From: Brevundimonas sp.
GTDB taxonomy: Bacteria > Pseudomonadota > Alphaproteobacteria > Caulobacterales > Caulobacteraceae
Assembly (NCBI RefSeq): GCF_004210735.1
Contig: NZ_SDZL01000001.1
Coordinates: forward strand, 29,381 to 93,380
Length of the DNA stretch: 64,000 nt
Direction: 5' to 3'
The notes under the pieces were generated by a model. The model had not been told where the DNA came from and did no database searches. It saw only the letters and a program-made list of their open reading frames with translations. Positions 58,292-64,000 of this stretch are shown here, one piece after another (position 1 is the first letter of the stretch; every line of letters begins with the position of its first letter). The position numbers and the translations under genes were made by a program.

Positions 58292-58352
58292 CCGCATTGG
58301 TCGGCGTAGTACAGCTCGAACAGTGGACGTCTCCGCGTGACAACGGTGGCCC

Positions 58353-58587
58353 GACGTCGAGGAGTTGCTCGCCCAGCGCAGCATCGAGGTCAGCTATGAG
58401 ACGATCCGCTGCTGGACGAAGAAGTTCGGACCGCAGATCGCCGGCGGCTGAAGGACCGCGCTCCCTACCCTTCCCCGCGCTGGCATCTGGGTGAGGTCGT
58501 CTGCGCAATCGGCGGCAGACTGATGTTCCTTTGGCGCGCGGTCGATGATGAAGGCGAGGTTTTGGATCTCGTCATCCAGCGTCAGGG
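58353..58587 (+). pseudogene. IS6-family-like transposase remnant
   Basis: The plus strand reads DVEELLAQRSIEVSYETIRCW then KKFGPQIAGG and a stop, and after a frameshift continues PSPRWHLGEVVCAIGG, LMFLWRAVDDEGEVLDLVI. These are the helix-turn-helix and the first catalytic-core part (DE..EVLD) of IS6-type transposases, which normally read LSYRDVEELLAERG and PRWHLDEM..IGG..YLWRAVD. One frameshift and loss of both ends make it dead. Its right end cuts into the nucleotidyltransferase gene. No terminal inverted repeats were found. Confidence 0.75.
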
Positions 58588-58951
58588 CGTCGTCCACCTC
58601 GGCCTGGGTGTGGACGATGAAGTTGACCGGCGTGCGCAGCCGCTCGCCCGACGACAGCTCCGCCAGCAGCCGCTTCTCCGCCGTGCTCCAGAACTCCAGC
58701 ACGTCGGCGTGCTTCTCGTCCGCCACCACGACCAGCAGATCGTAGTCGCTGAAGTAGCGCCCGACCGCGTCTTCGACCCAGTCGCCCCGGGCGTAGCTGC
58801 CGTACAGGATGATGCGGAGGATTTGCCCGTTCTTCAGGTGCTTGGCCCAGCGGGTCGAACGCTCCTCGTCGAAGCCCGCCGTCAGCACCTCCACCACGAA
58901 CGCCAGTTCGGCGCGCTTACCGGCCGGGAGATGATCGAGGGAGCGGGGCAT
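58588..58951 (-). pseudogene. nucleotidyltransferase (MNT-type), C-terminally truncated
   Basis: From the ATG at 58951 (MPRSLDHLPAGKRAELAFVV) the frame runs through the polymerase-beta-type nucleotidyltransferase site LYGSYARGDW and SDYDLLVVV (catalytic Asp pair) to about VDDAL, then passes into antisense of the IS6-like remnant. Related proteins go on with a second helical half (HEPN-like) that is missing here. So the conserved catalytic motif is intact but the protein is cut by the insertion. Full relatives are tied to toxin-antitoxin or genome-defence loci; here it is most likely a relic. Confidence 0.7.
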
Positions 58952-59157
58952 GCGTCCGGTCTGACGGCGCGACCGTGTCTTGGCAAGCCGCGCCTCTTCC
59001 CGGCCTGCGCTGTTGAACTCCCGCCTGATCACCATGCCCGAGTCTCACCGATTGGCGGCTGCCCTGCAAGCGCCCGAGGCGCTGCACCGGGTGAACGACC
59101 GCTTGATCGTGCGGCGGGCTTAACGACCGGCCGGCGGGGCACGGTTCATCTTCTTCG

Positions 59158-59751
59158 TCAGGAGCCATCCGGCAATCGCGGATAAACAGCGATGCCCTCA
59201 ACAGTGATCGACCGAGGAATATTACACTTCGGCATGTATTCTATAAAACAACTTTCTTCGAGATGGCCGGGGTTGAGCAAAAAAATGATCTCAGTGCCTG
59301 TCCAATAGCGAGCGTATTTTCCAGCGTCTGAAAGCCCCGAAACCACGCGCCCATTGGGCCACGCATCCATCACACGGCCAAGGTCTGAACCAACTCCCAA
59401 CCCGTAAGGATCACGCACCAGAGAAGAGCGGGTCTCAAAGTTGTAAACGTGCGATCTTCCGTTCGACAAGACCCCATCGAACCCAATCTTGACATTGAGT
59501 TCATCCGCAACCTTAACAACCAAGAAATTGTAAGGATCGCCTTCTCGCAATCCCTCCCCCGCTTCCACGACTTCAAACGAATCCGAAATAGATGCAAAGG
59601 TCTCGTCTATCGGAATCCCAAAGACGTCATCGCTCCCAGGCGTCAATACATAATATAATGGCTCGACGCTTTCCGATTTTTGGGCGCAGGAAGTGATCGA
59701 ACTCACGGCAATAAAAAATACTGCCAACGTTGCACTGAACATTTGTTTCAT
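59158..59751 (-). CDS. lipoprotein, likely immunity protein to the M15-type Rhs toxin
   Basis: 197 residues, AT-rich against its surroundings. A lipoprotein signal ([14 protein letters not shown], lipidated Cys at about 22) puts it in the periplasmic face of the envelope. The mature part has no family I recognise: [29 protein letters not shown]..., three further Cys. It overlaps the toxin stop by four bases (ATGA), the arrangement of Rhs toxin-immunity pairs. A periplasmic immunity protein fits a toxin that attacks the cell wall from the periplasm. Function is inferred from context. Confidence 0.6.
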
Positions 59752-60914
59752 CGTCCCGGTCCCGAACGCCTTTGCCAGTTAAAATAGAACTGGGTTCCAG
59801 GGCCCACATCACGTAGGTCAACGTGAACGCCTTTGCTGTTTCCGTAATCGTTAACTCTCTCGAATTGGCCGGAGTGGTAGGCTGCCGCAGCAGTTTCGGC
59901 TCTACTGTATCCAGTGATGCTGATGTCGGCGGCTTGGTCTGAGTTAGTAGTCAAGTGAGCGCTGTTTGCCGCTCCGCCAACACGGCGATTCTGTTCCGGG
60001 GTTCGGATGCCGCTTGTGACGTTGACCGTCGTCCCTTCTTCTTCGCTAAATTCGAGCAATCTGTGCTGCATCTCTGGCGTCACCACAGCAGGCGCTCCGT
60101 TCGCGCTCTGATTCTGCGGCAAGAGTCTGATCGAGCCCTGTTCAACAGTGGCCGTTCTCACAGTCCCCCGCTCCTCAGTACGTACTGTTTCGCTTCTGCT
60201 CACTGTCACGGAGCCATCAGAATTCGGCGTTCTCGCAATACTGCAGTCCCGATCACCCTCTTTGCAACCTATCATCCCCGTCGGGTCCGTCCGGTTCACC
60301 GGATCGTTTGCGACATACGCGTACAGGTTGACCTGATCCTCGTAGCCGATGGGATCGGTCTGCAGGAACCGTCCGAGGGTGGGGGAGTAGATCCTGGCCT
60401 TGTAGTGGTACATGCCCAGTTCGGGCAGCCAGGCCTGGCCGGTGTACTGGAAGCGGCCGGTGTTGGCTGAACCGGGGATGCCGTACTCGTCGTAGGTGTT
60501 GGTCGCTGTGACCGCGCCCGTGGCGTCGGTGCGGGCGACGATCGAGCCCTGATGGTCGGTGTAGAGGTATTGCGGCGTCGTGACCTCGGCGCCCTCGTAC
60601 CAGACCAGCGGCGTGTCCGCCCTGTCCCCGTGGACGTAGCGGCGCAGCATGACGCCGGCGGCGTCATACTCGGCCGTCAGCTTGTCGCCGTCGTACAGGT
60701 AGGTGGTGGCCGGTACGGTCGTGCTGGAACTGCGGAACAGTCGGCCCAGCGGATCCCAGGTCAGGCTGGCCCCGCCCGGCCCGCTGATCAACCGGTTCTC
60801 AACGTCATAGACATAGGTCCCCGCGCCATCCGAGGTCAGGTTGCCGTTGGCGTCATAGGTGAAGGCGGCCGACCCTGCCGTCAGATACTGGTTCAGCCCG
60901 TTGGCGGTGCCCAT
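59748..60914 (-). CDS. orphan Rhs tip with C-terminal M15-like peptidase toxin domain
   Basis: 388 residues. The first 200 are the end of an Rhs core: [59 protein letters not shown], and the family closing block [30 protein letters not shown] then [12 protein letters not shown], where Rhs toxins begin. The variable tail has the peptidase M15 pattern ([18 protein letters not shown] and GVHVDLRD: His, Asp and His zinc ligands), with a short insertion between the first His and Asp. A peptidoglycan peptidase toxin is the best reading. The rest of the Rhs gene is absent upstream; whether the ATG at 60914 (GAGG nine bases before) is used is unsure. Confidence 0.72.
60277..60815 (-). repeat. Rhs core repeat, copy 1 (539 bp)
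   Basis: The Rhs closing region here aligns without gaps to 62020-62558 at a constant offset of 1743 bp, with substitutions scattered mainly in third positions. The repeat ends at its 5' side (right) exactly where copy 2 stops at the recombinase remnant. The 217 bp between 60915 and 61131 hold no gene I can support. Confidence 0.85.
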
Positions 60915-61131: not shown

Positions 61132-61494
61132 CTAATCTAGTATTGGAGGCACCGTATCCACTGATATAGGCCATCCTAGCAGTTTAGAGCTAACAACGAT
61201 ATAGAACGGACCGGCCGACAATGGGGTCGTAAACTCCTTCACTCCGTCTCGATCCATAATCTGATATGTACTTCCCGATGTCAGACAAATTTCCTCAATA
61301 GAGGAAATTTCGTTGTGCGGATCTCTATCGTTGAGTTGCCCGCTCCATATTTCCCGACCATTCAGGGCGATAGCGGCGGTCGAGCGCTGGTAACCAGTAA
61401 AGTATACATAAGATTCTTGGCACCCCCCGCCGGGGGTTGCACAGGACGAAACACACAGGCCTAGACCTATAAGAATTATACGCCTGGTCACCAT
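61132..61494 (-). CDS. lipoprotein, likely immunity protein to the metallopeptidase Rhs toxin
   Basis: 120 residues, AT-rich. Lipoprotein signal [13 protein letters not shown] with lipidated Cys at about 18. The mature part (beta-rich: [22 protein letters not shown]...[13 protein letters not shown]) has no family I recognise. It overlaps the toxin stop by seven bases. Like the lipoprotein at 59158 it is an envelope protein placed directly after a toxin, so immunity is the natural reading. Confidence 0.55.
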
Positions 61495-62558
61495 ACGTAG
61501 CGCCCTTCAATCTGCGAGAATTGGGACTGAGTTACTTGTTGTGTCTGCGAAGGCCCAGCGTGCTGTGATTGGGTCATAAGAGTAGGAGGTTGTCCACTGG
61601 GCGTGTGCATAAGGCCAGCGGCATGGCCGAACTCGTGAGCGGACGTACGACGGAATGCGTTTCGCATTGACGCGTCCGTCATGAATCCGCCGATCTCAAT
61701 AGTGTTGGATCCTTGGTTCCACATGCCGGCGTCGCCAATTCTTCTATTAGTAATGCTAATTCCGTGCTCAACCCCCTCCCGCTTTCCGACACGGATTTGG
61801 GCATCCATCTTATACTCTACGGTATTTCCATCTTCATCAGTAAATGATTGATTGAAATTTTCTTCAATTGAGTTAGCCATATCTTCAGCAAGATCGTTCA
61901 ATGAACGCTTAGTATTTCCCCCTGCATTACTTAACGCGGCGGTAAATACAACGCTAACCACGGTATGCGTTTTCCCGCCCTCACTAGTGGTTACTGTACG
62001 AGTGGCCGAGATTTCAGTACCCGTCGGATCTGTCAGATTGACCGGATCGTTCCCCACATACGCATACAGGTTGACCTGATCCTCGTAGCCGATGGGATCG
62101 GTCTGCAGGAACCGGCCCAGGGTGGGGGAGTAGATGCGGGCCTTGTAGTGATACATGCCCAGTTCGGGCAGCCAGGCCTGGCCGGTGTACTGGAAGCGGC
62201 CGGTGTTGGCCGCGCCGGGGATGCCGTATTCGTCGTAGGTGTTGACGGCGGTGACCGCGCCGTTGGCGTCGGAGCGGGCGATGATCGAGCCCTGGTGGTC
62301 GGTGTAGAGGTATTGCGGCGTCGTGACCTCGGCGCCCTCGTACCAGACCAGCGGCGTGTCCGCCCTGTCCCCGTGGACGTAGCGGCGCAGCATGACGCCG
62401 GCGGCGTCGTACTCGGCCGTCAGCTTGTCGCCGTCGTACAGATAGGTGGTGGCCGGCGTGGTCGTGCCGGCGCTGCGGAACAACCGGCCCAGCGGATCCC
62501 AGGTCAGGCTGGCCCCGCCCGGCCCGCTGACCAGCCGGTTCTCGACACCATAGACATA
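61488..62558 (-). pseudogene. Rhs tip with C-terminal HExxHxxGxxH metallopeptidase toxin domain, 5' truncated
   Basis: About 356 codons of open frame remain. The Rhs part ([12 protein letters not shown] to [11 protein letters not shown]) matches the copy at 60277. The toxin tail has [13 protein letters not shown] (HExxHxxGxxH, the metzincin zinc site with catalytic Glu), preceded by [24 protein letters not shown]. At 62558 the Rhs homology ends abruptly, and further upstream on this strand lies antisense of the recombinase; no native start is left. It might still be expressed from a chance start, but it is best treated as a broken gene. Confidence 0.7.
62020..62558 (-). repeat. Rhs core repeat, copy 2 (539 bp)
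   Basis: Partner of 60277-60815, no gaps. The right end is a recombination border: recombinase coding starts within three bases. Confidence 0.85.
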
Positions 62559-62560
62559 CC

Positions 62561-63823
<1,263 letters not shown>

Positions 63824-63920
63824 TCGAAGATGGGAGTTTGGAATGTGAAGGAAGAAGGGTTCGAGAAGAGGGCTCAAGCAACGCGAAGCGCGTTAGCCCA
63901 ATAGACATTGCAATCCGCCA

Positions 63921-64000
63921 GGTAGACCCGGCGGCGACCTACTCTCCCGCGCCTTAAGACGAAGTACCATCGGCTCTGGAGGGCTTAACGACCGAGTTCG
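63921..64000 (-). rRNA. 5S rRNA, 3' part
   Basis: The minus strand reads CGAACTCGGTCGTTAAGCCC, the universal 5S core, then GATGGTACTTCG and GCGGGAGAGTAGGTCG. The 3' end is about 63921; the 5' part lies beyond the window. About 97 bp of spacer separate it from the tRNA. It shows that a 16S-23S-5S-tRNA-fMet operon lies to the right. Confidence 0.95.

Follow-up and report, generated by a model that had tools for sequence, protein, structure and literature searches.

A 5′-truncated Rhs cassette of Brevundimonas with an M15-type peptidase tip and a candidate lipoprotein immunity protein

Rhs toxins with tips directed at the cell wall have been described previously. In the part of Zhang et al. (2012; PMC3482391) covered here, such tips are L,D-peptidases accompanied by Imm16 and Imm57, and Imm65, the partner of Tox-JAB-1, is called the only apparent lipoprotein immunity protein of the collection. 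According to the same part of that paper, these L,D-peptidase toxins combine, as does the locus reported here, an Rhs core, a tip predicted to be directed at peptidoglycan, and a downstream immunity gene, and a subset of their immunity proteins is secreted or membrane-bound; unlike our tip, they have a thiol peptidase fold. The terms "M15" and "VanY" are absent from the first 300,000 of the 357,715 characters of the text.

M15-type domains themselves occur in predicted interbacterial effectors, as in our locus: Acinetobacter Tpe14 (PMC6833914), the WHIX effectors (PMC12135965), and Neisseria LysM1 (PMC10210955). In the available parts of these papers, most neighbors of WHIX effectors carry signal peptides, and all three systems are linked to a T6SS and are not built on Rhs cores, whereas our locus has an Rhs core and no T6SS was found with it (see below). 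The teneurin-like YD-shell toxins, for the part of PMC13018210 covered, share with our locus a YD shell, a toxin at its C terminus, and, directly after it, a gene that is diverse and was shown in one case to confer immunity; one of their tips inhibits growth only with a signal peptide. Their tips and partners are other ones, however, and the copy studied here is an orphan end. Finally, the X-Tfe/X-Tfi pairs of Xanthomonas (PMC6536674), in the portion of the paper covered, include lipoprotein immunity proteins for periplasm-acting toxins, as we propose here, and a cytosol-acting nuclease whose partner has no lipoprotein signal. These toxins are delivered by a T4SS and, in that portion, involve no Rhs protein, in contrast to ours.

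Wall-directed Rhs tips, lipoprotein immunity, and M15-type T6SS effectors are known, and the combination of an M15 tip, an Rhs core, and a lipoprotein is new as far as we could find. In a full-text literature search, mainly of openly accessible papers, we met no account of an Rhs core that bears an M15 tip and is paired with a lipoprotein, and no paper was found in the literature search on signal-peptide-bearing YD-repeat/Rhs toxins of Alphaproteobacteria. Here we describe such a combination in a stretch of 64,000 nucleotides from Brevundimonas sp. (contig NZ_SDZL01000001.1), hereafter the window, in which all positions are counted unless another contig is named. We think that the locus is probably a 5′-truncated Rhs cassette that joins a wall-cutting M15-type tip to an anchored lipoprotein immunity protein, and that it now serves as a store of both.

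Architecture of the truncated cassette

The open reading frame at 59748-60914 (minus strand, 388 aa) consists of an Rhs core remnant and a variable tip. The remnant (residues 1-214; 60273..60914, minus strand) contains the closing domain with its DPIG...DPTG motif and matches TIGR03696 (Rhs_assc_core) at residues 141-214 with an E value of 4.1e-23. The tip (residues 215-388, 174 aa; 59748..60272, minus strand) diverges after DPxG: the DNA homology between the cores of the two cassettes of the window stops where the tips start. A gene for a predicted lipoprotein follows on the same strand (59158-59751), and the tip stop and the lipoprotein start overlap by four bases in the ATGA at 59748..59751, read from the sequence. 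A preliminary description of this DNA had reported the coordinates (59158..60914), the Rhs closing motif, the variable end, and the four-base overlap, all of which we recovered.

Only the end of an Rhs gene is present at this locus. The genome (2.83 Mb in 165 contigs, 95.7% complete) has a single Rhs match in a long open frame, an intact gene for a protein of 1444 residues on contig C125. DNA homology between the window and this gene covers 60276-60909 and ends at most 5 bases from the ATG at 60914, so the start of the truncated frame adjoins a rearrangement point. The frame is a 5′-truncated orphan from which the N-terminal export/delivery part is absent, a truncation that the preliminary description does not mention. 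The intact C125 protein starts, by eye, with a signal-peptide-like segment and matches no PAAR family, and its partner bears a signal and is not a lipoprotein by the stricter or the wider of the two rules given below. Type IV secretion-like genes lie upstream on C125 (by eye), and downstream of the intact gene is a short stretch of Rhs core (L005, 13108-13236) that is likely another displaced end. Orphan or displaced Rhs ends with immunity genes, possibly reattached through recombination, are described in the part of PMC8125069 covered here, and the anatomy of the window cassette is that of a displaced end of this kind with its immunity gene. From the core through the tip to the lipoprotein gene, GC content falls from 66.2% to 55.8% and 49.2%, and GC3 from 88.8 to 56.3 and 52.3, which fits the expectation for an acquired cassette.

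The tip holds an M15-type zinc peptidase domain (59817-60080). PF08291 (Peptidase_M15_3) matched residues 279-366 of the frame with an E value of 1.3e-12 and 48.2 bits, above its curated cut-off of 23.2, and gave an E value of 3.3e-13 on the tip alone, in agreement with the assignment made in the preliminary description. The predicted zinc ligands are H320 (59955-59957), D330 (59925-59927), and H364 (59823-59825), all within 59823..59957 on the minus strand, and each is invariant in 10/10 aligned tips (window included). Similarly, His, Asp, and His are modeled as ligands in YcbK of Klebsiella, an M15_3 protein, in the part of PMC3927764 covered. The zinc-ligand spacing of M15 peptidases had also been ascribed to this tip, and here only half of the claim stood: the His/Asp/His residues are present, but the His-Asp distance is 10 (H-x9-D) and not 7, the distance that is typical of M15 peptidases, as in 1lbu, although not obligatory, so the M15 spacing in its strict sense is not found. 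Among the 10 aligned tips, the distance is 10 in five (the window among them), 7 in three, including the tips of both relatives discussed below, 9 in one, and 12 in one; it thus exceeds 7 in 7/10, window included. With the tip profile, 1lbu, a D-Ala-D-Ala (muramoyl-pentapeptide) carboxypeptidase, is also recovered at E 0.0022, and the H...AAD segments line up. Judging by these likenesses, the tip would likely cut peptidoglycan in the periplasm.

The partner gene (59158..59751, minus strand) encodes a predicted lipoprotein of 197 aa, our candidate immunity protein, with a signal at residues 1-21 and the lipobox I-T-S-C22 read from the sequence (Cys22 at 59686-59688). Signal and lipobox are also called by both the stricter and the wider rule, and the lipobox Cys is invariant in 5/5 aligned lipoproteins (window included), which upholds the exported lipoprotein proposed earlier. 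As had been stated, it belongs to no known family: neither Pfam nor NCBIfam gave a match. A protein search over 5.8 billion sequences yielded a family of five members, its own sequence included; in the order, the lipoprotein profile matched 1/299 genomes, the window's own, and no viral contig carrying the lipoprotein was found. The further suggestion of a new immunity family holds insofar as these few sequences are unnamed, but the counterparts in relatives make up a small family of their own, and its kinship with the first is suggestive only (see below). We predict that the lipoprotein represents an unnamed immunity family. LRV_FeS (Pfam) matched 11/18 lipoprotein rows, at best with an E value of 1.2e-4 in a row other than the window's, and this was read as a chance match to a cysteine pattern.

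The structure model of the window lipoprotein (7 sequences) had a pLDDT of 62, with residues 121-190 being fair (block means of 82-86, one block 69). Its top Foldseek match was the E. coli lipoprotein YfeY (PDB 2qzb) at a sub-threshold E value of 0.067; an identity of 9-13% and scores that reach no safe threshold make YfeY a lead only. The model of the counterpart family (13 sequences) had a pLDDT of 55, and among the 50 matches listed for it the best was 8chu (E 0.1) and none was YfeY. Because of the low pLDDT of both models, the sub-threshold YfeY match, and the lack of a YfeY match from the counterpart family, we dropped a fold claim for the lipoprotein.

Recurrence in two relatives

At E 1e-6 or better, the profile of the M15 tip matched 14/298 genomes of the order, 3 of them strongly and 11 weakly. 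The strong matches are the own genome and two others (E 8.7e-41 and E 1.1e-31), namely those of Ponticaulis koreensis DSM 19734 and of a Hyphomonadaceae MAG. The 12 places with weak matches (E values from 1e-9 to 7e-7) may hold M15 proteins of the ordinary kind. At a threshold of E 1e-12, searches of 385 genomes in the class, 398 in the phylum, and 199 in the family yielded no match beyond the own genome; among the matches listed, no more than 9 or 18 candidates had been scored in any one genome. In 3/3 strong loci that were read (window, Ponticaulis, and MAG), a gene for a predicted lipoprotein comes next after the tip in the same order, and the two overlap by exactly four bases, so related loci do hold the same kind of pair, as the preliminary description required.

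The Ponticaulis Rhs protein is full length (1488 aa) and begins MSALTRRLLLTMVMVVSLFSVDAVAQS, which is signal-peptide-like by eye; it matched neither PAAR nor any other T6SS family. Its tip matches Peptidase_M15_2/DUF882 (E 2.5e-8, 34.3 bits against a cut-off of 27), scores just under the M15_3 cut-off (22.0 against 23.2 bits), and weakly resembles the model of the endopeptidase MepK, with 23.3 bits (E 4.7e-5) where the cut-off is 185. The Hyphomonadaceae tip scores 29.3 bits on PF08291 (cut-off 23.2). The lipoproteins of the two relatives are homologous, as a profile made without the Ponticaulis protein finds the latter at 40.3 bits (E 4.7e-11), and because a homologous lipoprotein is common to both, the two loci are not independent. 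As a control, the neighboring Rhs gene of the Hyphomonadaceae MAG, which carries another tip, has a partner without a signal. The other Rhs gene of Ponticaulis (L136) has a lipoprotein-like partner, and its tip has no Pfam family.

The sequence comparisons are suggestive only of a relationship between the window lipoprotein and this counterpart family. A profile of the five window-type lipoproteins ranked the Ponticaulis lipoprotein as the top non-member (10.5 bits, E 0.051), above all 3,000 shuffles. In the reverse search, the scores of 4.9-7.3 bits were no better than those of shuffles, the best of which reached 8.1, and hhalign between the two families gave probabilities of 0.9-30%. That the lipoproteins of the window and of the relatives are barely alike would suit an unrelated or helper protein that merely lies downstream of the tip and confers no immunity. 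However, position, orientation, and four-base overlap are identical in three genomes, the low GC is common to tip and lipoprotein gene, and partner type tracks tip type (9/9 and 9/9, next section). We therefore find a bystander or helper quite improbable and keep to the lipoprotein as a candidate immunity protein.

The relatives also help in deciding how such a toxin would travel. Many studied Rhs toxins are T6SS cargo, and M15-type T6SS effectors exist, as reported in the covered parts of PMC6833914 and PMC12135965, so one could take the locus for a fragment of a T6SS Rhs effector. Nevertheless, a search of the window genome and of both relatives for the gene of the T6SS sheath protein VipB (PF05943) gave no match (3/3 genomes); the same search, run on 14 control genomes, matched in E. 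coli. In addition, the intact Rhs proteins of C125 and Ponticaulis have a signal-peptide-like start and no match to a PAAR family. A T6SS origin is very unlikely on these grounds, and a cassette derived from a probably exported Rhs protein is the reading we retain.

Partner type across Rhs tips of the order

The survey sample comprised 100 further Rhs cores of the order, namely the 79 best-ranked and 21 hand-picked lower ones among the matches listed; some were from the same genus, and some loci overlap or are near copies. Four tips shorter than 60 aa were dropped and 96 kept, 8 of which had no downstream ORF. Six tips from the window, C125, and the two relatives brought the set to 102. Lipoproteins were called by rules of our own making, the stricter rule first and the wider one set after the N-termini had been seen. 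By the wider rule, the partners of the 96 survey tips were lipoprotein-like in 20 cases, exported or membrane proteins of other kinds in 30, and neither in 46 (including the 8 without an ORF). Two of the 20 (L133 and L138) look like membrane proteins, and by the stricter rule 12/96 tips had a lipoprotein partner. An exact four-base overlap start was seen in 16/96. With a base rate of 20/96, lipoprotein pairing alone is not rare, and the 3/3 found for the M15 tips is weak when taken alone (about 0.01 if independent); since other Rhs tips have lipoprotein partners as well, also under the stricter rule, the M15 pairing exemplifies a local rule.

What sets the partner apart is the nature of the tip. 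Nine of the 102 tips are of peptidase or hydrolase type (three M15, one M23, two M91, two alpha/beta-hydrolase, and one metzincin-like), and their partners are exported in 9/9 cases, being lipoproteins in 9/9 by the wider rule and in 5/9 by the stricter one, under which the partners at L059, L060, L062, and L098 show only a signal-like segment. When the window and the M15 tips are set aside, exported partners accompany 5/5 peptidase or hydrolase tips. Conversely, the partners of the nuclease-type tips (two Tox-GHH and one each of LHH, CDI EC869-like, ribonuclease, GH-E, HINT-HNH, Ntox10, and Ntox50) have no signal by either rule in 9/9 cases. Tip families were taken from the best 25 of 31 Pfam families, with DUF4258 (one member) and six others left out of the tally. 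Matches below the Pfam cut-offs underlie both alpha/beta-hydrolase tips, the metzincin-like tip, and the GH-E tip (E 0.0038), and the M10, M43, and reprolysin matches in the tip survey were taken as the window's second tip. Fisher's test gave 5e-4 for 5/5 against 0/9 and 4e-5 for 9/9 against 0/9, values that assume independence of loci that are only partly independent. In these small numbers, partner type follows tip type, the pattern to be anticipated if the partners served for immunity at the site of tip action. Immunity location likewise follows toxin location among the Xanthomonas T4SS effectors in the part of PMC6536674 covered.

The survey also bears on what the tip cuts. M91 and metzincin-like peptidases are not known as wall enzymes, and such tips in the survey also have exported, lipoprotein-like partners. 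Together with the unusual His-Asp spacing, this leaves some room for a zinc peptidase whose substrate is an envelope protein, or for a processing enzyme, in place of a peptidoglycan hydrolase; the lipoprotein would still be its inhibitor. Both profile relatives, 1lbu and, weakly, MepK, act on peptidoglycan, however, and we consider such a peptidase improbable and a wall-cutting tip the better explanation.

By rule, about half of the downstream partners in the survey (50/96; loci L057-L156) look exported or membrane-bound, which points to many envelope-acting Rhs tips without a Pfam family. The partner-address rule (9/9 and 9/9, small numbers) could assign compartments to many such family-less tips. 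If the proposed pairing is true, Rhs toxins gain both an M15 tip and a lipoprotein immunity family that has no name yet, and the pairing suggests that Rhs toxins of the order work without a T6SS and that the partner's address (exported lipoprotein or cytosol) foretells where the tip acts. It would also provide a testable new pair among the weapons that bacteria are thought to use on their neighbors, and a proteinaceous inhibitor of an M15 peptidase would be a handle on wall enzymes of the M15 class.

A broader claim can be formulated. The lipoproteins of the window and of its relatives may be two branches of one unnamed immunity superfamily that plugs M15 peptidoglycan peptidases, possibly with a YfeY-like fold, and the order may possess a Sec-exported, T6SS-free Rhs weapon in which each envelope-hydrolyzing tip travels with its own lipoprotein antidote. 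Taken jointly, we hold these propositions only tentatively.

Proposed role and surroundings of the cassette

In intact relatives, it is likely that the entire Rhs protein is directed to the Sec pathway by its N-terminal signal-peptide-like segment, as we infer from one M15 relative (Ponticaulis) and from the own genome's C125 gene, both judged by eye. Other Rhs toxins release the tip by cleavage at the DPxG motif. The M15-type tip would be expected to be freed at the same motif and to act on neighbors, in which it would cut peptidoglycan, while the lipoprotein, anchored in the membrane, would block the tip in the producer's own periplasm. The producer's wall would meet the tip during export, and this would explain an exported, membrane-bound antidote. 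As the export/delivery part was lost from the window copy, the latter is most likely a stored cassette and not a working weapon here. Its lipoprotein would remain protective, and the core segment left in the cassette, which closely resembles that of the neighboring cassette, could recombine the tip back onto an intact Rhs gene.

This neighbor (61132-62750) is likewise an orphan Rhs cassette, carries a lipoprotein gene of its own, and is arranged in tandem upstream of the M15 cassette. Its 5′-truncated Rhs frame (61488..62750, minus strand) matches TIGR03696 with an E value of 4.2e-23 and ends in a metzincin-like zinc peptidase tip (61491-62015, minus strand), for which the Pfam matches are below cut-off (M43, 0.001; M10, 0.0013). 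A predicted lipoprotein of 120 aa (61132..61494, minus strand) overlaps this second tip by seven bases, or by four with a GTG start. Between the two cassettes, the core DNA at 62020-62558 is 92% identical to that at 60277-60815 over 539 bases.

It is also conceivable that recombination left nothing but a dead remnant, that is, an untranslated and unexported tip beside a functionless lipoprotein gene. The truncated frame, which may be unexpressed, starts at most 5 bases from the end of its homology to the intact Rhs gene and bears no export signal, and a recombinase ORF without a catalytic-domain match, a nucleotidyltransferase gene, and an apparent transposase fragment are nearby; the whole segment may be decaying. 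However, both tips and both lipoprotein genes are open, and their conserved residues, lipoboxes, and overlaps are kept, which argues against long decay, as this should have broken some of them. The copy seen today is most likely either a tip kept in store together with an antidote that is still of use, or such a remnant, and of these we regard the remnant as unlikely, albeit well worth considering, and favor the store.

A serine-recombinase ORF (62645-63790, plus strand) has Recombinase and zinc-ribbon matches, no resolvase-domain match in Pfam, and a start that overlaps the truncated 5′ end of the second cassette. On the other side, a nucleotidyltransferase-like ORF (58394-59035, minus strand) overlaps an apparent transposase remnant (58340-58560, plus strand, by eye), and DNA similar to the 58340-59150 region is annotated as a HEPN domain protein in three plasmid records. 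The DNA at 58300-63800 matches 394 plasmid records, none of them over 80% of the segment and the top ones at the Rhs cores; a tblastn search for the M15 tip on plasmids gave no match. Finally, a tRNA-Met and a 5S rRNA match lie at 63747-64000, where the end of the window is also the contig end (C102:93380), and the array is probably located beside an rRNA operon at an assembly break.
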